Assembly (NCBI GenBank): GCA_019118665.1
Contig: DWYM01000019.1
Location: 18,869 to 82,868 of the forward strand
Reading direction: 5' to 3'
Source: Candidatus Mediterraneibacter intestinipullorum
GTDB taxonomy: Bacteria > Bacillota > Clostridia > Lachnospirales > Lachnospiraceae
Length of the DNA: 64,000 bases
The translations under genes were made by a program, and so were the position numbers. Positions 10,297 to 27,119 of the stretch are shown piece after piece; position 1 is the stretch's first letter, and each line of letters begins with the position of its first letter. The notes under the pieces were generated by a model. The model searched no databases, had not been told where the DNA came from, and saw only the letters and a program-made list of their open reading frames with translations.

Positions 10297-10444
10297 CTGC
10301 CGTAAGCCTTGTTAGAAAGACATGCGTGTGATACACTGGCATTGGGATCTGCCGTGTTGCTGTCAGCAGCCGGGGGTCCTGCACAGACAGAACAGATATC
10401 AGACGATCATAGAGATTCAGGGCAGTGTTTATCTGCCGGGGAGT

Positions 10445-11398
10445 ATGCCAATGAATGAGAATATGTACAGCGCGCAGCGAGTGATCAGTGAAGTGGAGAA
10501 AGCAGTGGTGGGGAAGCGGGACGTCCTGACAAAGATCATGACCGCGATACTTGCGGGCGGGCATATCCTGATAGAGGATATCCCGGGAACAGGGAAGACG
10601 ACCATGGCGCTGGCGTTTTCCAGAACAATGGGGCTGAAGGTAAAAAGGGTCCAGTTTACTCCGGACGTGCTTCCGGCTGATCTGACCGGATTTACTCTTT
10701 ATCAGAAGGAAACAGGCAAATTCGTCTATCAGCCGGGCGCGGCGATCTGCAATCTGCTGCTGGCGGACGAGATCAACCGGACGTCTCCGAAGACGCAGTC
10801 AGCGCTCCTGGAGGTGATGGAGGAACAGCAGGTGACCGTGGATGGGGTCACGCACAGGACCGGAGAGCCGTTTATCGTCATCGCCACAGAGAACCCGGCA
10901 GGATCAGCAGGAACCCAGCTTCTCCCGGAATCCCAGCTGGACCGGTTTATGATCTGTGTCAGCATGGGGTATCCTACCGTGGAGGAAGAGATGGAGATAT
11001 TAAAACGAGACCAGAAAAAAGGCAGGATCAGTGAGGAGACGGAACCGGTCCTTGACGCGGCGCAGCTTCTTGCCATGCGCTCGGAGGTGTCAGGGATATT
11101 TGTGCACAAACGCATTTACCGGTATATCGCGGAGCTGGCAAAGGCGACCAGGGAAAATGAGTGGACGGAGCTGGGACTCAGTCCAAGAGGAACTGTGGCG
11201 CTGACGGCAATGGCAAAGGCATGTGCCTGGATGAAGGGGCGGGAGTATGTGATCCCCGCGGATGTACAGGAGGTATTCCCATGCGTGGCGGGTCACAGGA
11301 TCTTTCTGAATATGAAGGCAAGGGTAGGGCATATCCGGGTGGATGAGCTGATCCGGCAGGCGCTGGAGAATGTCCCCGCCCCGGCGCTTAGAGGGTAA
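10445..11398 (+). CDS. MoxR family AAA ATPase
   Basis: GHILIEDIPGTGKTTMA, DEINRTSPKTQSALLEVMEE. Confidence 0.92.
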   Translation: MPMNENMYSAQRVISEVEKAVVGKRDVLTKIMTAILAGGHILIEDIPGTGKTTMALAFSRTMGLKVKRVQFTPDVLPADLTGFTLYQKETGKFVYQPGAAICNLLLADEINRTSPKTQSALLEVMEEQQVTVDGVTHRTGEPFIVIATENPAGSAGTQLLPESQLDRFMICVSMGYPTVEEEMEILKRDQKKGRISEETEPVLDAAQLLAMRSEVSGIFVHKRIYRYIAELAKATRENEWTELGLSPRGTVALTAMAKACAWMKGREYVIPADVQEVFPCVAGHRIFLNMKARVGHIRVDELIRQALENVPAPALRG

Positions 11399-11403
11399 CG
11401 GTC

Positions 11404-12459
11404 ATGATAAAGAGGCTGGCGGGATATCTTGTGTTGCTGCTTGCGGCGGCATACTTGTATTTTATGTATAATGAAACAGTGATTTCGGGAATCCTTGTGT
11501 TCCTCACACTGTATCTGCCTGTGTCAGCGCTGTATCTGATCCTGATAAGGGGCAGGGTCGACGCAGACCTGGGACGAGTCCCGCCTATGGGCGAAGAGGG
11601 AAAAAAGATCCGTGCAGGGGCGGTTGTAAGAAACAGATCCCACATGATGAACATCCATTATGAAGTGTTTCTCACATTGGGAAATACTCATGATAAAAAG
11701 CGGAAGAGGAGAAAGTATGCAGGGGCTGTCCCTGCAGGCGGTGAAGAGACTCTGTGGTGTGAATTTGAGACAGGGCGGTGCGGCAGTATCGAGGTGAGGC
11801 TTGACAGCATCAGGGTCTATGATTTTCTCGGCATTTTTTTCCTGCGTAAGAAAGTGAAGAGGAGGGCGGCTGTCAAGATCCTGCCCCGGTTCAGCCTGAT
11901 GTCCGTTGAGATCACAAGAAAGACAAGGGAGTTTCAGGCGGAAGCAGATGAGTATTCCGGAGAGAAAAGGGGAGACGATCCCTCGGAGATCTACCAGATA
12001 AGAGAATACCGGGTCATGGATTCTCTAAAGGACATTCACTGGAAATTAAGCGCCAAAGAGGAAGAACTGATGGTAAAGGAGAGGGGATTTCCACTGGGGT
12101 GTACTGTCCTGATCTGGTTTGATGTAAGGGCGGGAAAGCTGTCTGCAGAAGGGTTTTCAAAGATGATCGAGAGGGCGGCGTCTCTGTCCGTCACCCTGGC
12201 AGCGGAGAAATGTATCCACATGGCGGCATGGTATGAAGAGAAGAACGAGCAGATCGTGATGCAGAGGGTGAGGGATGAGGAAAGCGCCTGCAGTATGGTC
12301 TGGCGGCTTCTTGATCTGGAGCCTTGCAGGGATATAAAAAAGAGAGACGCCTGCTACGAGAATACTTTCCGGGGCCGGGAGTTCAGCAGTATCGTAACAA
12401 TAGACGGCGAGGGAAAGATCTGGAAAGACGGAGAGATGCCAGAACTGCTCCGGCTGTGA
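11404..12459 (+). CDS. DUF58 domain-containing protein
   Basis: Two N-terminal TM, YQIREYRVMDSLKDIHWKLSAKEEELMVKE DUF58 signature. Confidence 0.85.
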   Translation: MIKRLAGYLVLLLAAAYLYFMYNETVISGILVFLTLYLPVSALYLILIRGRVDADLGRVPPMGEEGKKIRAGAVVRNRSHMMNIHYEVFLTLGNTHDKKRKRRKYAGAVPAGGEETLWCEFETGRCGSIEVRLDSIRVYDFLGIFFLRKKVKRRAAVKILPRFSLMSVEITRKTREFQAEADEYSGEKRGDDPSEIYQIREYRVMDSLKDIHWKLSAKEEELMVKERGFPLGCTVLIWFDVRAGKLSAEGFSKMIERAASLSVTLAAEKCIHMAAWYEEKNEQIVMQRVRDEESACSMVWRLLDLEPCRDIKKRDACYENTFRGREFSSIVTIDGEGKIWKDGEMPELLRL

Positions 12460-12495
12460 GACAGATGGGACGGATAAGGGGAAAGGGGTGATGGA

Positions 12496-14559
12496 ATGGG
12501 CAGAAAAAGAATGGGGATAAAAATATACCGGAAAACACCACGGGAAAAATCCGGGAGGAAAGAGCGTTTGTCCGAGGTGATCCTCTTTTTTGCTGCCGTC
12601 TCCTTCCTTGGGGCAGTGTGGTGGAATGCACTCCTCCCAGTGTTTTCCCCGGGAGCGGACGGCAGATGGCTGTATGGAAGTCTTGTCATTGTGACATTCG
12701 GGCTTACACTGCTTATATGCAGGGCTGGAGGCTGGACAGTGATCCCGGTCTTTCTGGCGTCGGGGATGTTTCTCTGGAGGAACAGGGAGTCAGTGGAAGC
12801 GCTGTTTTTCCAGGGCGGCAGCCTGGATACAGGACTCCCGGGAGTGGCGGCGGCTGTCCTGACGATCCCTGTGCTGGCACTGTGGATATTTGTCATCTGT
12901 TCCGGAAAAGGAAAGGTGGTTGCAGGCGCCGCGGCTGCTGCTCCGTTCATTGCGGCGGCATGCGCGGGTTATTTTCCTTCATTCAGGGATTCGTGGCTTC
13001 TTCTGTTTGGGGGCGTGATGTACTATGTTGCGGGTGCTCAGGGGAAAATGCCTTTTTTGAAGAAAATGACGGCCCTTCTTACAGCGGCGGGAAGCTTTGC
13101 TCTTCTGGCAGGGATTTCTGTTTTTGCAGGGAGATACCTGGATGTCGGACGAGAGGTGGAAGGCGGTTTCTACCAGACGACCCGAGAGACGCTTCGCACA
13201 GATCTGGTGGGAGGCATTGAGAGACTGATACAGAGTGAGACCGGAACGGACGGCAGTCCGGAGAGAACAGATGAAATGGAGGAGGAAACAGCCCAGGAGC
13301 AGCAGGAAGAAGCCGTAATGGCGGCGGAAGAGGAGATGGAGGGAACGGAAGCGCCAGGGGATGCCCTGGCAGGCACAGGGGGGAGCATGGACCGTCTGAA
13401 AGAGATCAGTTCCTTTGAGCCCGATCCCCTGGCGCAGTCCTCGGTGATTGCTGTGCAGGAAAGACCGCGCGATACTGTGTATGTGGCGCAGAGGACCGGA
13501 ATTGCTTATACCGGGGGCGCATGGGAGGAAGGAGAGGTCCGGGAAGCGTTTCTTCCGGAAGAATATCTGGCATATCCTGAGGGACTGGATCAGCTTGAGG
13601 AGCTGTGCCGGGACTGGGAGATAAGTTCCGAAACATCTGTGGGACGTCAGATCGACGAGGCTTTTGCAGCCCTGGCAGTCTATGATACAGAACCGGGTCC
13701 CACTCCCCCATCCGAGGATTTTGCGGAATATTTTCTGTTTGAAAACCATAGAGGGTTCTGCGTCCATTTTGCCACCGCGGCCGCGCTTCTTTACCGTATG
13801 TGCGGCTATCCGTCGGTATATGTGGAAGGGTATGCGGTGCCGGCGTCCGCTTTTTATCAGGCGGAGGATGGATCCTGGCAGGCTCGTGTAGACGGAAGCA
13901 TGGGGCATGCGTGGTGCCAGGTGTATGAAGAGGATGAGGGGATCTGGGTGAACCGGGAACATACTCCGGCGGCTTTGGGGAGCGGGGCAGAAGAGATGTC
14001 TGAGGCGGAGACGCGGACAGAGGCTGACTATGCGGCCAATATCATCCGGGGTTTGGGGATCGCGGCGGCAACTGTTATCCTGTTTCTGCTGCTGGCAGGA
14101 GCCTTTCTGCTCCAGGCGGCATTCAGGCGGAGAAAGCGCAGGGCAGGAATGGCCTATACTGCGGAAGGCAATGGGATCCCTGCAATGTACGATGTGATCC
14201 TGAGGACGGCAAAAGCCGCCGGGGGTCCAGGGAGAGACTCCGGGGACAGGCATGGGGCTGATCTTTCAGACGAGCTGGGTATTGAATGGCTGGAGTCTCT
14301 GAAAGAGGGTTCCCCGCAGGCTGGAGGGGAAGAATGGGACTGGCTTCATGAGCAGGTGATGCGCGCTCTTTTCTATCACCCGGATATGGGGAGGGAAGAA
14401 TGGAAAAGGGCATACAGGCTGTGCCGGGGATTCTCAGACACCGTCAGAGCGCGGATGGGGGCGGGAAAACGGCTGCTCTTCCGGTATTTATACTGCCTTG
14501 ATGTTTTTCCCCATGAAGATAAAAGAAGAAAAACAGTAAAAAAGGAGAATGTTAAATGA
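12496..14559 (+). CDS. Transglutaminase-like domain membrane protein
   Basis: N-terminal multi-TM; HRGFCVHFATAAALLYRMCGYPSVYVEGY and HAWCQVYEEDEGIWV catalytic motifs. Confidence 0.88.
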   Translation: MGRKRMGIKIYRKTPREKSGRKERLSEVILFFAAVSFLGAVWWNALLPVFSPGADGRWLYGSLVIVTFGLTLLICRAGGWTVIPVFLASGMFLWRNRESVEALFFQGGSLDTGLPGVAAAVLTIPVLALWIFVICSGKGKVVAGAAAAAPFIAAACAGYFPSFRDSWLLLFGGVMYYVAGAQGKMPFLKKMTALLTAAGSFALLAGISVFAGRYLDVGREVEGGFYQTTRETLRTDLVGGIERLIQSETGTDGSPERTDEMEEETAQEQQEEAVMAAEEEMEGTEAPGDALAGTGGSMDRLKEISSFEPDPLAQSSVIAVQERPRDTVYVAQRTGIAYTGGAWEEGEVREAFLPEEYLAYPEGLDQLEELCRDWEISSETSVGRQIDEAFAALAVYDTEPGPTPPSEDFAEYFLFENHRGFCVHFATAAALLYRMCGYPSVYVEGYAVPASAFYQAEDGSWQARVDGSMGHAWCQVYEEDEGIWVNREHTPAALGSGAEEMSEAETRTEADYAANIIRGLGIAAATVILFLLLAGAFLLQAAFRRRKRRAGMAYTAEGNGIPAMYDVILRTAKAAGGPGRDSGDRHGADLSDELGIEWLESLKEGSPQAGGEEWDWLHEQVMRALFYHPDMGREEWKRAYRLCRGFSDTVRARMGAGKRLLFRYLYCLDVFPHEDKRRKTVKKENVK

Positions 14560-15144: not shown

Positions 15145-18100
15145 GTGACTGATTTGAAGAATAAGATCAAGCGATTTGCCAAAGGGGATTTTCACATCCC
15201 ACAGCCGGAGATCATCTTTCCTGAGACGCGGATCATCATGCGCGTCGGCGAGGGAGAAAAATACAGGGGGAGCTTCTCGCTCCAGAACCAGGGGGAGGGG
15301 ACCATACGAGGCCTTGTATATCCCTCCTCTTATCGTGTTCAGTGTGACGAGCAGGGCTTTGACGGCAATCCGGTCAATATTTATTATACATATGACGGCA
15401 GCGGGCTTTTGCCCGGGCATGTGGAGCACGGCAAATTCACGATTGTCTGCAACGGCGGGGAATATGACGTGGCGTTTTCCGCGATCATTGAAAAGCCTTT
15501 TGTGATGACCAGCTACGGCAAGATCCAGAGCCTGGAAGATTTTAAAAAGCTTTCGTTCCGGGATGCTGCTGAGGCGGTGAAGCTGTTCCGCTCCAGGGAT
15601 TTCTATGAGATCCTGAAATACGAGGACAGGCGGATCCAGGCGCTCTATGACAATATGCGCAAGTGGGAGCTGGATCAGCAGGCGCTGGAAGAATTTCTCG
15701 TGGGGTGCAAGCAGAAGGAGAAGATATTCCTGACTCTGGAGGAAGAGAGCAGGGCGTTCATCTCTCTTTCGGAAGCCCGCAAGGAGACGTTCACAGTCAA
15801 GAAGAATACATGGGGCTATCTGGAGATCGACGTGCGGACGGAGGGAGATTTTCTCTCAGTGGAGCACACGCGGGTCACGACAGAAGAGTTTATCGGAAAT
15901 TCTTACCGGCTGGAATATTTCCTGAATGTTGAAAGGCTTCACGAAGGAAGCAACTTCGGCAGGGTTATCATGGAGTCGCCCTACGAGACTCTGACCTATG
16001 AGATCGTGGTGGAAAAAGATGTAAAAAGAGATGAGGAGCGGCGCGCCAATGACAGGGAGTTCGCCGGGATCATACGCAATTATCTGAAATATGAGGGCGG
16101 AAGGATGGAGCTTTCCGACTGGGTGGAAGAGGCGGTGAGACGGATCAGCCATTTAAGGGACATGGATCCGAAAAATGAATTTTACCTGCTTTTCCATGCC
16201 CACATCTGCCTCATCGGAGGCAGGCCGGAAGAGGCGAAATGGCTCCTTGAATCCTATAATTATAACAGGTTTGCCATAGGAAAGGATGTGGAGCTGAGCT
16301 CGTATTATCTTTACCTGACGACACTGTTGTCCAGCGACACCATCGGACAGCGGAAGGTGGCGGAGGAGCTTTCGAGAACATTCATGAAGCATCCGGACAG
16401 CTGGAAGGTCCTGTGCATGCTGGTAGAGGTGGATTCGGAGTATAAGATTTACAGCGAGAGGCTGCGCGCCCTGGAAAAGCAGTTTTACGAGGAAAAATCC
16501 CACAGTATCTGGTTCTATCTCCAGGCTTTCAGGTGTTTCCGGGACAAGAGTTCCTCCCTGAAGAAACTGGGAGAGTTCGAAGTGCGCGTCCTGCTCTTTG
16601 CGGTGAAACATAAGCTGATGACCAGAGAGCTGGCGCTTTACACGGCGAACCTTGCCAGCCAGATGAAAGTATTTGACAGACATCTCTATGATGTTCTTGT
16701 GCTTTCCTATAAAATATATCAGGAGGCTATGATCCTTACATCTATCTGCACTCTGCTGATCAAGGGCAACTGTATGGACAGGAAATATTTTAAGTGGTAT
16801 CAGAAGGCAGTGGAGGCAGAGCTTAAGATCGCGCAGCTCTACGAGTATTATATGGCGTCCGTTGTCCCGGGGCAGTTCCACAAGGCGCTGCCAAGGTCCG
16901 TGTACCTGTATTTTATGCACGGAAATTCACTGGACTACCATAAATGCGCGTTCCTGTATGCCAACCTGATCACCTATGAAGATGAGGCGAGCGAGATCTA
17001 TGCTCATTACAGAGATGAGATGGAAGCGTTTGCCTGGAATCAGCTTGACCGCAGAAATGTGGATGAGCAGCTTCGTATCATATACAAGCGCTTTGTCGTA
17101 GAATCCGCGATGAATCCGGAACGAGTCAGAGCGCTGTATGATGTGTGCCATGCGTATTGGATCACGACAAAAGTTCCGGATATGAAGTATATCCATGTGA
17201 TCGCGGAGGATGGGACGATCACCCAGAAGGTGCCCTACACGGAGAGCGGCGCCCGCGTGTTCCTGTATGCCAAGACCGACCGTCTCGTGTGGGAGGCAAA
17301 GGATGGCAGGCATTACACGGATTCCATCCCATATGAAAGCAAACGGCTCTTCTACGAGCTGCGCTACATGGATATGTGCAGAAAATATATCAATGGGCTG
17401 CGCAGAAACAGAGAGGAAGAGGAATCACAGGAACTGACGCCGGATGTGGTGCGTGAAAAAGGCCTGGAGAACTATACGGAGGAAGAGCTGCTGGGGCTTT
17501 GCAGCAGGACAATCAGGGAAAACAACTATGAAAATGATGACTTCCTCACTTATGTGTGTTTTGAGCTGTTCAAAAAGCAGCAGTATGACAAAGTGATCCT
17601 GACCTATCTTGCCAACTATTACTGCGGGGCCACCCCGGATATGAAGGTGCTCTGGAGGGAGGCGAGGGATTATGAGGTACATACCCACAAACTTGCGGAG
17701 CGGATCCTCACGCAGATGCTTTTCTCGGAGGAGCTCTTCCAGGAGGCGCAGATTTTTGAACAGTATTATGCGGAAGGCGCTTATTTCCGCCTGCAGCAGG
17801 CATATCTCTCCTATGTGTCCAGGGAGTATGTAGTTGAGGAGAGGAAGATCGGCCGCAGCGTGATCGACATCATCTGCCGCGAATATGAGAAAGGCGAGGA
17901 TACTATCGACATCTGCAAGATCGCCGTACTCAAGTATTATTCCGGCAGGGAGTACAATGCGCAGACGCGCAGGACACTGAAGAAATTCCTTCAGGAGCTG
18001 TGCGCGAAGCAGATTTATTTTCCATTCTTCCTTTCTTATGAGAAGGACTGGCTGATCGAGCAGCAGCTCTGGGATAAAACACTGATCGAGTACAAGGGCC

Positions 18101-18447
18101 AGAAGGGCAGCAGGGTCATGCTCTATTATCAGCTCCAGAAAGGCGGAGAGGAGCCGGCGGACTACTCCACAGAGATCCTGACTCCCATGTACGAGAATCT
18201 CTATGTGAAGAAATTCGTGCTCTTTGCCAATGAAAAGCTGAAATATTATTTTAAAGAGACCATTGACGGAAATTCCTACCGCAGCGATAAAGAGACATGT
18301 GTAAGAGAGACAGAGCCCGGCGAACAGGGCAGATACGGAAGGCTGAATGATATCCTCACGGAGTCCGGAGCCAAGCAGCGCAGGAAGAAGATGCAGGAAT
18401 ACGCGCTGGAGGATGCGGCGGCAGTCCATATGTTCACACAGGAATAA
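15145..18447 (+). CDS. DUF5717-like protein: N-terminal Ig-like domain(s) and long alpha-helical solenoid
   Basis: 1100 aa; beta-rich N-terminus (SFSLQNQGEGTIRG.., GNPVNIYYTYDGSGLLPGHVEHGKFTIVCNGGEYDV) then helical repeats. Confidence 0.7.
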   Translation: MTDLKNKIKRFAKGDFHIPQPEIIFPETRIIMRVGEGEKYRGSFSLQNQGEGTIRGLVYPSSYRVQCDEQGFDGNPVNIYYTYDGSGLLPGHVEHGKFTIVCNGGEYDVAFSAIIEKPFVMTSYGKIQSLEDFKKLSFRDAAEAVKLFRSRDFYEILKYEDRRIQALYDNMRKWELDQQALEEFLVGCKQKEKIFLTLEEESRAFISLSEARKETFTVKKNTWGYLEIDVRTEGDFLSVEHTRVTTEEFIGNSYRLEYFLNVERLHEGSNFGRVIMESPYETLTYEIVVEKDVKRDEERRANDREFAGIIRNYLKYEGGRMELSDWVEEAVRRISHLRDMDPKNEFYLLFHAHICLIGGRPEEAKWLLESYNYNRFAIGKDVELSSYYLYLTTLLSSDTIGQRKVAEELSRTFMKHPDSWKVLCMLVEVDSEYKIYSERLRALEKQFYEEKSHSIWFYLQAFRCFRDKSSSLKKLGEFEVRVLLFAVKHKLMTRELALYTANLASQMKVFDRHLYDVLVLSYKIYQEAMILTSICTLLIKGNCMDRKYFKWYQKAVEAELKIAQLYEYYMASVVPGQFHKALPRSVYLYFMHGNSLDYHKCAFLYANLITYEDEASEIYAHYRDEMEAFAWNQLDRRNVDEQLRIIYKRFVVESAMNPERVRALYDVCHAYWITTKVPDMKYIHVIAEDGTITQKVPYTESGARVFLYAKTDRLVWEAKDGRHYTDSIPYESKRLFYELRYMDMCRKYINGLRRNREEEESQELTPDVVREKGLENYTEEELLGLCSRTIRENNYENDDFLTYVCFELFKKQQYDKVILTYLANYYCGATPDMKVLWREARDYEVHTHKLAERILTQMLFSEELFQEAQIFEQYYAEGAYFRLQQAYLSYVSREYVVEERKIGRSVIDIICREYEKGEDTIDICKIAVLKYYSGREYNAQTRRTLKKFLQELCAKQIYFPFFLSYEKDWLIEQQLWDKTLIEYKGQKGSRVMLYYQLQKGGEEPADYSTEILTPMYENLYVKKFVLFANEKLKYYFKETIDGNSYRSDKETCVRETEPGEQGRYGRLNDILTESGAKQRRKKMQEYALEDAAAVHMFTQE

Positions 18448-18462
18448 GGAGGGTGTCTTTCC

Positions 18463-19746
18463 ATGGGACAAGGCAGTATCATCGGTTATGAAATAAATGA
18501 GAAGACATGCCAGATCAGTTTTTACAACGATCAGGAACTGGAGCCGGACACGCTTGAGGTGGATTCGGACAACTATCAGATCCCTCTGATCATCGGGAAA
18601 CTTCGGGATACATGGGCATACGGCAAGGAGGCAAAGCGTCTTGTCACCATAAAGGAAGGTTTTACGGTCACAAGGCTTTTGAGCAAGAGCCTTGCCGGGG
18701 ACAGGATCGAATTCGGGGAAGAAACATACGACGCGGTATGGCTTCTCTCCCAGTTCATCCAGATGTCTCTTCAGTCTTTCCCCGAAATCGAAGGGATCGT
18801 GTTTACCGTGCCGGCGCTGACAGAGGAACTGGCGCAGATGCTGAGGGGGATCGCCGTGCGCATGAATATTGACAAGCGGCATATCTTTATCCAGGATTAC
18901 AAAGAAAGCTTCTGCAATTATCTGTTCTATCAGCCAAAGGAGCTGTGGCAGTACGACGCGGCGCTCTTCTGCTGCGACCGGAATGAGATCCGGGCTTATA
19001 TGCTCCGGCGTCTCCGCCCGGGCCTGGGCGGCGGCAGGACCACTTTTGTGACAGTGGACGAGGTGGCCAGCGCCCATATGAAGGAACTGGCGGCAGTTTA
19101 TCCGGTGCTGAATGAGGACAAGGCGAAAGAGGCGGATGCCATGTTCTGCAGGTTTATTGAGAGTGTGTTTGACAAGCGGATCGTATCTTCGGTATTTCTT
19201 ACAGGAGAAGGCTTCGAGAATAACTGGTATCCAAAAGCGCTGAGAGTGCTCTGCAACGGACGGCGCGCCTTTATCGGGAACAACCTGTACAGCAAGGGCG
19301 CATGCTACACAGCTTACCGGAAGCTTTTCATGCACATCGAGAATCCGGTCTATCTGTCAGAGGACAAGCTGACAGACCAGATTACAGTGAATATGAGAGT
19401 GGATGGTCAGGAAATGTGGTATCCCATCGTTTCGTGGGGCGCTCACTGGTATGAGTCCAACAACCAGTGGGAAGTCCTTATGGAAGATGTAAAGGACATT
19501 GAATTCCACATCGAATCCCTGATCCAGGGGAATGTGAGGACTGAGAAGATTTCTCTTGAAAAATTCCCCAGGCGCGCGGAGTACTCCATGCGTCTCCAGA
19601 TCGAGACGCTGTTCCTGGATGAAAAGACATGTAAGATCACTGTGCGGGATGCGGGATTTGGCGATTTCTTCCCGCCCACGGATTTCCACGCGGAAAAGAT
19701 CATACATTTAGGAGGCAATGATGGGAAATTTAATTCTTTGTCATGA
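18463..19746 (+). CDS. DUF5716-like protein; divergent Hsp70/actin-fold candidate
   Basis: IIGYEINEKTCQISFYN, YGKEAKRLV, GIVFTVPALTEELAQMLRGIA, VFLTGEGFENNW align by eye with Hsp70 landmarks. Confidence 0.65.
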   Translation: MGQGSIIGYEINEKTCQISFYNDQELEPDTLEVDSDNYQIPLIIGKLRDTWAYGKEAKRLVTIKEGFTVTRLLSKSLAGDRIEFGEETYDAVWLLSQFIQMSLQSFPEIEGIVFTVPALTEELAQMLRGIAVRMNIDKRHIFIQDYKESFCNYLFYQPKELWQYDAALFCCDRNEIRAYMLRRLRPGLGGGRTTFVTVDEVASAHMKELAAVYPVLNEDKAKEADAMFCRFIESVFDKRIVSSVFLTGEGFENNWYPKALRVLCNGRRAFIGNNLYSKGACYTAYRKLFMHIENPVYLSEDKLTDQITVNMRVDGQEMWYPIVSWGAHWYESNNQWEVLMEDVKDIEFHIESLIQGNVRTEKISLEKFPRRAEYSMRLQIETLFLDEKTCKITVRDAGFGDFFPPTDFHAEKIIHLGGNDGKFNSLS

Positions 19747-20488
19747 CAGACACGCGGCACATCCTTACGAGGTCACCAGGATACACAGCAGGATCTTCAC
19801 CATCGAGGAGCTTTGCTATTATCTGTGTAATAATCTCTATCTCATCGACTACACGATCATGAACGAACAGCTCTGTGACTGGCTTGACGAAGAGCTGGGC
19901 ATGGAGAGCCTGGCGTCAGACCTCAGGGACGTGCTCCGGCTGAGGGGGTCCGTGGAGAAGTTCGTCCTGACGATCCTGAAAGCTTCGCGCATATACAGGG
20001 AGCCGGAGATGATACGCATCCAGAATGTGCTGGAGCATCTGAAGAACCAGAAGGATATCGAGCGTCAGAAATTCAAGGGGGACAACCTGTTGGAGAGCGG
20101 GGAGCTGGAGGAGGCGATCCTCGTGTACCAGTCTATCCTGAACCAGGAGAGAGATGAGACCGTGGACGATAAGTTTTACGGCCGGATCTACGCGGGACTG
20201 GGAGCGGCATACGGAAGGCTCTTTCTGTATCAGGAGGCGGCGCGCATGTATGACAGGGCTTATCAGATGTGCGGGGATAAGACGCTCCTCAAACCGTATC
20301 TGTACGCATCGTACAAATATATGTCCCTGGAGGAATATCACATCCTAATCACAAAGAATGAAGAATACATGGAGATCAACGCGCAGATGCGTCAGGAGCT
20401 GGACGAGCTCCGGAAGAGCCTGCCCGCGGAGACCGATCTCTCTGTTATAGAAAAGTGGAAGCGGCAGCACCGCAGGAGCCATACTTAG
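19721..20488 (+). CDS. TPR-like protein, coupled to upstream gene
   Basis: Overlaps 18463..19746; TPR-like helices (GDNLLESGELEEAILVYQSILN, GLGAAYGRLFLYQEAARMYDRAYQ). Confidence 0.65.
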   Translation: MGNLILCHDRHAAHPYEVTRIHSRIFTIEELCYYLCNNLYLIDYTIMNEQLCDWLDEELGMESLASDLRDVLRLRGSVEKFVLTILKASRIYREPEMIRIQNVLEHLKNQKDIERQKFKGDNLLESGELEEAILVYQSILNQERDETVDDKFYGRIYAGLGAAYGRLFLYQEAARMYDRAYQMCGDKTLLKPYLYASYKYMSLEEYHILITKNEEYMEINAQMRQELDELRKSLPAETDLSVIEKWKRQHRRSHT

Positions 20489-26153: not shown

Positions 26154-27119
26154 ATGGAGTGGTGTGGGAAACTTTATGGGGAGTGGAGATCAGCAGAAAA
26201 TCTCCACAGGATGGAGCGGACTGTGCTTGTCCTCATTGTTTTTCTGATGCTGGCAGGCTGGGTCTGGGACACAGGGGCGGCGATACCTGGCACGGATGGA
26301 GGATACGCAGATCGTCTGTCAAGAAGGGGGTTCGGAATGGAACCTGTTTCTGATGACCCCGGGATACTGGCAGTGATGGCAGTCACCGGATGCAGTCCGG
26401 TCCCACTGAAGGGCATGGACATGTCCCGGGATATCGCGGAGCAGGAGAGATTGACTCAAGAGACTGCGCCACTCATAACGCCTGCGGGACTGACAGCCGG
26501 GGCGGATACCTTTCCCGCTGAGCCAAAGTACCCTGAGGAGACGGCGCCACCCATAAGCATTCCTGCGGAAGAACACCCGGCAGAGACTGTACCGCCCGCG
26601 GACGCTCCGGCGGAGGAGGCGCCGGCTGAGACAGTACCGTCGTCAGTGGATGGGGTTTTTGTAAATGAGTATGGGATGATCTGCGGGATCCAAGATCCGG
26701 CAGTTGTTTCGGACGGTTATCTGGTCCTGCCATCTGAAGGCTGCACAGGGATCGCGGCGGGAGCGTTTGCTGATGTTCCGGTCATCATCGCAGAGATCTA
26801 TATCCCTGCCAATATCGTTCATATAGAGGAGGGCGCTTTCGCCGGGCTTGGCTATCTGGAGTGGCTGGAAGCAGAAGCTTCAGAAAGTTATTATACAGAG
26901 GACGGTGTGCTTTTCTCGGAGAATGGGACCTGCATACTTGGCTTTCCATCCGCAAGGACCGGGAGTTATAAAGTTCCTGACAGAGTTACCAGGTTTGCGG
27001 AAGGTGCGTTTGGCGAGGCAAAGATCGAGGTCATAGACGCAGTCGGCTGTTCCCTGGAAGCCACAGGCAGCCTTCCCTCATCCATCCTTCTGCTCCGGGC
27101 GGAGGATCTGAAGGGTTGA
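26154..27119 (+). CDS. Membrane/secreted protein with BspA-type (LRR_5-like) repeats and P/E/T-rich linker
   Basis: N-terminal hydrophobic segment; PAEEHPAETVPPADAPAEEAPAETVP linker; GAFADVP.., EGAFAGLGYLEWLE repeats. Confidence 0.65.
   Translation: MEWCGKLYGEWRSAENLHRMERTVLVLIVFLMLAGWVWDTGAAIPGTDGGYADRLSRRGFGMEPVSDDPGILAVMAVTGCSPVPLKGMDMSRDIAEQERLTQETAPLITPAGLTAGADTFPAEPKYPEETAPPISIPAEEHPAETVPPADAPAEEAPAETVPSSVDGVFVNEYGMICGIQDPAVVSDGYLVLPSEGCTGIAAGAFADVPVIIAEIYIPANIVHIEEGAFAGLGYLEWLEAEASESYYTEDGVLFSENGTCILGFPSARTGSYKVPDRVTRFAEGAFGEAKIEVIDAVGCSLEATGSLPSSILLLRAEDLKG

Follow-up and report, generated by a model that had tools for sequence, protein, structure and literature searches.

Ssz1, of the fungal ribosome-associated complex, is a known Hsp70-like partner in a chaperone system; it binds ATP and pairs with the J-protein Zuotin, and Hsp110/Sse1 is a longer relative in which ATP binding and an extended lid are kept. 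According to a review, prokaryotic Hsp70s comprise three types, DnaK, HscA and HscC, the last two being specialised proteins with dedicated J-protein partners that keep most ATP-binding and hydrolysis residues (PMC8215388), while in Myxococcus a second Hsp70, MxDnaK2, is encoded in a bicistronic operon with an upstream nucleotide exchange factor (PMC11019930). A survey of DnaK duplication mentions neither Clostridia, nor Lachnospiraceae, nor pseudo forms (PMC11019930), and in the open-licence literature no bacterial pseudo-Hsp70 or multi-Hsp70 operon resembling the system described here was found. The present analysis concerns three consecutive genes, here called B, A and C, in a stretch of 64,000 nucleotides (the window) of Candidatus Mediterraneibacter intestinipullorum (contig DWYM01000019.1), which belongs to the family Lachnospiraceae and the order Lachnospirales (lineage from the source record; "the family" and "the order" below). 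By descent, gene A is an Hsp70, with the framework of the nucleotide-binding domain (NBD) and the beta part of the substrate-binding domain (SBD-beta) retained, and the trio is the reduced remnant of a chaperone machine that was built on dedicated Hsp70s.

The proteins of A and B are members of DUF5716 and DUF5717, for which Pfam gives neither a function nor a link to Hsp70; no literature on either was found among open-licence papers, the single match being unrelated by title. The analysis adds their connection to Hsp70, the operon context and their origin in evolution. Gene A probably encodes a lidless pseudo-Hsp70, derived from an operon gene named Hsp70b below, that serves as the hub of a cytosolic B-A-C complex and has no ATPase of its own.

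Hsp70 ancestry of gene A and the state of its catalytic site

The features of gene A that bear on its ancestry are the following:
18463..19746, + strand: gene A, 427 aa, DUF5716 (PF18980), predicted lidless pseudo-Hsp70 with NBD and SBD-beta
18478..18504, + strand: phosphate-1 remnant IIGYEINEK, residues 6-14 (Hsp70 IIGIDLGTT), by alignment
18958..18987, + strand: phosphate-2 remnant AALFCCDRNE, residues 166-175 (Hsp70 IMVYDLGGGT), by alignment
19192..19221, + strand: adenosine-loop remnant VFLTGEGFEN, residues 244-253 (Hsp70 VLLVGGSTRI), by alignment
19351..19710, + strand: SBD-beta-like domain, residues 297-416, eight strands, modelled at a predicted local distance difference test (pLDDT) of 73-89 over most of its length and aligned by hhalign to the Hsp70 SBD

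The protein matches DUF5716 at 6e-101 (337.7 bits, against a gathering score of 34.7), and its closest named relatives are from Mediterraneibacter and other Lachnospiraceae. Taken singly, its sequence gives no Hsp70 signal in Pfam, NCBIfam or a phmmer search against the PDB, and none of 48 A sequences reaches the gathering score of Pfam HSP70 (PF00012); it is because single copies are silent in this respect that the family remained "unknown". Weak matches to TniQ, NusA and cofilin were dismissed as chance. A profile built from 48 diverse family members, when compared with the PDB, finds DnaK proteins as its best matches (top E=2e-8), and its alignment to a DnaK profile is collinear across residues 4-401 of A, ending near position 470 of the 615 of DnaK, so that it covers the NBD and the SBD-beta and stops short of the lid. 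Against a mixed, broader Hsp70 profile, hhalign gives 99.7% over the full length (E=1.8e-25); when the halves are aligned separately, the NBD reaches 99.2% and the SBD 96.8% (E=2e-10, with 0.4% for a reversed SBD control), and all controls, including reversed profiles, swapped halves and the unrelated profiles of B and C, stay at or below 0.5%.

The predicted structure points the same way. An AlphaFold2 (AF2) model of A, for which 53 sequences were used and whose pLDDT averages 64, is mostly confident in lobe I and in the eight-stranded C-terminal domain. The 50 PDB chains that Foldseek ranks highest against this model (E from 2e-10) belong to Hsp70, Hsp110 or Ssz1 or to complexes known to hold an Hsp70, with one exception in name, 7n6g chain 6K, labelled merely as part of a ciliary complex. 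Global template modelling (TM) scores are low, at about 0.3, as expected given the poorly modelled middle of the protein. An earlier note on this DNA had quoted Hsp70-like motifs, which were found in the 427-aa protein, and had proposed an ASKHA/Hsp70-like fold; PDB profile search, Foldseek and hhalign all recover an Hsp70 fold, so the similarity is real, and the proposal understated it, since what emerges is Hsp70 descent with both NBD and SBD-beta, together with an operon in sister families where a GrpE-domain protein is encoded alongside three intact Hsp70s.

The catalytic residues were compared in an alignment of DnaK, the operon Hsp70s and 35 A proteins or their operon counterparts (A'), in E. 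coli DnaK numbering. The set D8, G10, T11, T12, K70, E171, D194, the GGG loop and T199 is retained in 57/57 of the operon's Hsp70a, Hsp70b and Hsp70c. Among the A or A' proteins, equivalents of K70 and T199 are absent from all 35, the GGG loop is gone throughout, and that of E171 survives in three A'; D8 is still Asp in 30/35 and D194 in 26/35, the first Gly of the adenosine loop is present in 34/35, and the phosphate-1 Gly is invariant. In the window protein, E, L, Y, C and E stand at D8, K70, E171, D194 and T199 (Glu10 at D8, Cys170 at D194), and a multi-family Hsp70 alignment places CCDRNE (residues 170-175) at the phosphate-2 loop DLGGGT, exactly where the earlier note had seen the motif degenerate. 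The pseudo-ATPase that it proposed is borne out by the missing K70 and T199 equivalents: to judge from its sequence, gene A is a pseudo-ATPase that has lost the residues for ATP hydrolysis. The helical lid (SBD-alpha) is absent, as the protein ends at residue 427 after the beta domain, and the SBD-beta domain is maintained across the A family.

Partner genes, distribution and origin of the trio

The two genes that flank A, and their parts, are these:
15145..18447, + strand: gene B, 1100 aa, DUF5717 (PF18984 and PF18983; Pfam 1e-214 and 5e-101)
15229..15525, + strand: first Ig/ASH-like beta domain of B, residues 29-127, from AF2 secondary structure, with Foldseek matches to central-pair and CEP192 Ig-type domains and to 2qsv
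15730..16017, + strand: second Ig-like beta domain of B, residues 196-291, from AF2 secondary structure
16030..17148, + strand: alpha-solenoid of B, residues 296-668, from the AF2 model, with Foldseek matches to PPR10 and to solenoid subunits of the Ski and Paf1 complexes
3' of the solenoid in B: in order, a beta domain at residues 670-734, a second run of helices at 739-972 and a beta domain at the C-terminus, 978-1053, from the AF2 model
19718..20488, + strand: gene C, 256-aa tetratricopeptide repeat (TPR) protein, Pfam TPR_12 at 8.5e-5, below the curated cut-off

The three genes are consecutive and all on the + strand, and the layout claimed earlier, with the last two genes overlapping, agrees with the coordinates and with a 29-nt overlap of A and C. 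The DUF5717 matches of B score 715.5 and 338.3 bits (gathering score 25), and in its AF2 model (mean pLDDT 82.5) a pair of beta-sandwiches at the N-terminus is followed by a long solenoid of helices, with two more beta domains besides. Foldseek matches these parts to Ig-type domains of ciliary central-pair proteins, the SPD-2 domain of CEP192, the Porphyromonas protein 2qsv and solenoids like those of pentatricopeptide repeat (PPR) and TPR proteins, which upholds the N-terminal Ig-like domain and alpha-solenoid described before; the likeness once drawn to Ig domains of Hsp70-associated proteins falls away, the nearest solved folds being, besides 2qsv, the central-pair and CEP192 domains, which we take to be of the ASH/MSP type. 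An HPD tripeptide of B (416) falls within the solenoid. TPR-like helices in C are backed by its family profile, which matches natural TPR structures at E ~1e-11, and the corresponding protein (C') of genome G413 has a strong Pfam TPR match. Hydropathy reveals no membrane-spanning stretch in A, B or C.

Within the family, the trio behaves as a near-universal core. In a survey of 150 genomes, one per genus, DUF5716 was found in 145 and DUF5717 in 145, with both in 144 and neither in four, and the two genomes with just one of them are assemblies that are 67-68% complete. All 61 family loci that were opened (61/61) have B, A and C adjacent and co-directional, the two gaps having medians of 14 and -4 nt, and in five (L161-L165) A and C are fused into one protein, so that the co-occurrence on which the earlier proposal depended is found. 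In an even sample of the class (245 genomes), in which few other members of the order were included, matches above the family cut-off were confined to the family. A protein of about 395 aa with a membrane stretch directly follows C in 20/61 family loci, although a search of the genome to which the window belongs (an assembly of 2.5 Mb in 123 contigs, 83% complete) did not find it; this membrane protein and a valS neighbour each occur in about one third of the family loci. As PADLOC models match none of the three genes and the distribution is core rather than patchy, a role in anti-phage defence was rejected.

A larger operon occurs in sister families of the order (coded f76, f79, f81, f83, f87, f89, f92, f93 and f94). 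Here B is usually split into two genes, B1 (Ig, ~400 aa) and B2 (solenoid, ~900 aa), and the order is B1, B2, Hsp70a (~559 aa), a GrpE-domain protein (PF01025, E 5e-12 to 1e-14), A' (~500 aa), Hsp70b (~546 aa), Hsp70c (~700 aa) and C' (TPR, ~390 aa). Hsp70a, GrpE and A' stand together in 18 loci from nine families. The A' of G413 exceeds two Pfam cut-offs at once, DUF5716_C (1.8e-25) and HSP70 (1.9e-16), and thus forms a bridge sequence; a search with Hsp70b as a single protein also recovers A, weakly (E 2e-7 to 3e-4), in 9/24 genomes from the window's family. The coiled-coil membrane protein and valS are also present in several of the sister-family operons, and these shared neighbours tie both arrangements to one chromosomal place.

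In phylogenetic trees, A together with A' is sister to Hsp70b, the adjacent gene in the operon (FastTree support 0.97; ultrafast bootstrap 100 on a reduced set), and the A proteins of the window's family are nested within A', beside that of genome G410 (1.0 and 100). The operon Hsp70s group as one clade (1.0 and 79), a deeper placement that is less certain since other Hsp70s were sparsely sampled, and they are separate from DnaK and from an HscC-like protein (HscA was not included). Six of six genomes from sister families have an Hsp70b orthologue (666-1057 bits), as against none of 24 from the window's family, where the best match is DnaK at no more than 161 bits. The family is without the operon's GrpE gene and all three of its intact Hsp70s, B1 and B2 are fused in it, and B-A-C is its near-universal core. 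The simplest history would be that a duplicate of Hsp70b became a pseudo-enzyme in an ancestor of these families, and that the intact Hsp70s and GrpE were presumably lost, and B1 and B2 joined, later in the window's family.

Several observations were made around these loci, in which open reading frames had been called mechanically. The GrpE-domain protein (L251:7375-9312, L254:8654-10366 and equivalents) has an N-terminal region of about 440-510 aa without a Pfam match, while the L253 version has 279 aa in total. Locus L264 (G421:C115, ~2.9-9 kb, family f87) carries B1-B2-A' without adjacent Hsp70a/b/c or GrpE, and the operon may have been reduced there a second time, independently. An A' profile was run across the phylum for signs of a broader origin; beyond the family, those of its matches that were opened are ordinary or other Hsp70s, and seven of the more atypical among them all lie without Ig or solenoid neighbours; in L292, L293 and L295, from other lineages of the phylum, an atypical DnaK-like gene (~500 aa) lies among apparent chemotaxis and ParA-like genes. 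A different Hsp70 cluster, in which two divergent Hsp70-like genes of 538 and 531 aa stand in tandem among neighbours of unknown nature, occurs at L252:8486-11936, in a genome from the same genus as the window, and L260:4161-8880 has phosphatase-like, kinase-like and Hsp70-like genes in a row. Upstream of B, a divergently transcribed aminotransferase-like gene (~370 aa) adjoins it in about 20 loci (L171, L175, L181, L185 and others), and a similar gene lies near the operon in G412 (L259), whereas the window has MoxR and GNAT genes at that place; in a subset of genomes (L166, L208, L211) clpX and a large lon-like gene directly precede the trio. In the window itself, positions 10322-14559 encode a MoxR-type AAA ATPase, a DUF58-like protein without a Pfam match and a membrane protein with a transglutaminase core, apparently a separate operon just upstream, which was rejected as part of the system as it is not conserved beside B in relatives; positions 26154-27119 encode a 321-aa protein with a proline/glutamate-rich stretch, a repeat-like C-terminus and no Pfam match.

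Possible working of the trio

How could such a relic operate? B, A and C would be joined in one cytosolic complex with the pseudo-Hsp70 A as its structural hub, B serving as a long platform and arm for clients or partners, and C as a TPR adaptor attached where the lid would come next. The complex might either hold or scaffold clients independently of ATP, or recruit the housekeeping DnaK; the former is the most likely, with a probability of about one half. The history of A' is informative in this respect: because it is retained beside intact Hsp70s in nine families, a role as a non-catalytic subunit predated their loss, after which A may have become the indispensable part, and this history favours a hub or scaffold that turns over no ATP itself and in which the SBD-beta and the Ig/solenoid arms would be the parts that bind clients or partners.

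Several points weigh against this. No J-domain match was obtained among the operon proteins scanned, and the SBD of A may have lost peptide binding. The adenosine-loop and GA motifs of NBD lobe II do align with Hsp70, but residues 150-296 of the model mostly have a pLDDT below 50, so that lobe II is modelled tentatively and A may retain some nucleotide binding; in some relatives the Asp and glycines of phosphate-1 persist.

The main rival, itself rather unlikely, is that DnaK supplies the ATP work: A would be a nucleotide-exchange or regulatory partner of ordinary DnaK, in the manner of Hsp110 or Ssz1, with B and C bringing specific clients. Hsp110/Sse1 and Ssz1 are indeed among the best fold matches, and the family has kept DnaK while losing the operon's GrpE and intact Hsp70s, but A is without K70, GGGT and T199, unlike the ATP-binding Hsp110 and Ssz1, and there is no direct sign of contact with DnaK. 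Unlikely, too, is a reading in which chaperone function is gone and only a structural scaffold is left, such as one associated with the membrane or envelope via the downstream coiled-coil membrane protein. Such a protein does follow C in a third of the family loci and occurs in several ancestral-type operons, and the ASH-type Ig domains of B resemble those of scaffold proteins; however, the membrane protein is not beside C in most loci, it was missing from the window's incomplete assembly, and the SBD-beta has been maintained. Quite improbable is a nucleotide-sensing ASKHA protein, still binding ATP or another nucleotide and signalling by closing: the invariant phosphate-1 Gly and the widely kept phosphate-1 Asp and adenosine-loop Gly would suit it, but every A and A' lacks K70, T199 and the GGG loop, nearly all lack E171, and the window protein is altered even at the D8 and D194 equivalents. 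The idea that A resembles Hsp70 by chance or as any ASKHA protein would, and that the genes are unrelated neighbours, for which the sub-threshold Pfam scores of single members and the low TM-scores could be cited, has a negligible probability. It is refuted by controls of at most 0.5% against 99.7%, by the G413 bridge and by the recovery of A with Hsp70b, and the synteny of all opened loci and the fusions also speak against it.

Taking the hub reading further, the order may hold an unrecognised multi-Hsp70 complex, in which three active Hsp70s and an embedded pseudo-Hsp70 would be joined by a dedicated GrpE, by a membrane partner and by arms of the Ig/solenoid and TPR kinds, and which evolved in one large gut family into an ATP-independent, core and possibly essential machine built around the pseudo-Hsp70, a proposal that is tentative and falls somewhat short of even probability.

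Comparison with described systems

Two near-universal Pfam families of "unknown function" in a dominant gut family are thus the remains of a dedicated Hsp70 machine, and sister families with the full operon offer a before-and-after view of the passage from an ATP-driven chaperone to a pseudo-enzyme scaffold, through which function becomes testable. Pseudo-Hsp70-like partners are known in eukaryotes (Ssz1), and none was found described in bacteria in the open-licence literature. Like A, Ssz1 is an Hsp70 relative acting as a partner rather than as a working chaperone, and their folds match, whereas A has lost the ATP-binding signature, has no J-partner in its operon and is of independent origin. 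Hsp110/Sse1 likewise resembles A as a divergent Hsp70 partner with a matching fold. HscC and HscA share with A a specialisation with dedicated partners, and differ in that A lacks the catalytic residues and no J-protein was seen in the operon. MxDnaK2 is similar in that an operon pairs an extra Hsp70 with its own nucleotide exchange factor, although that operon has no pseudo-Hsp70, Ig, solenoid or TPR genes. Compared with DnaK/Hsp70 and GrpE, the domain order of NBD and SBD-beta is kept in A, and the sister-family operon has intact Hsp70s and a GrpE-domain gene; what sets the system apart is the loss of the catalytic residues and lid from A, the absence of a visible J-protein gene from the operon, and the addition of Ig, solenoid and TPR partners.

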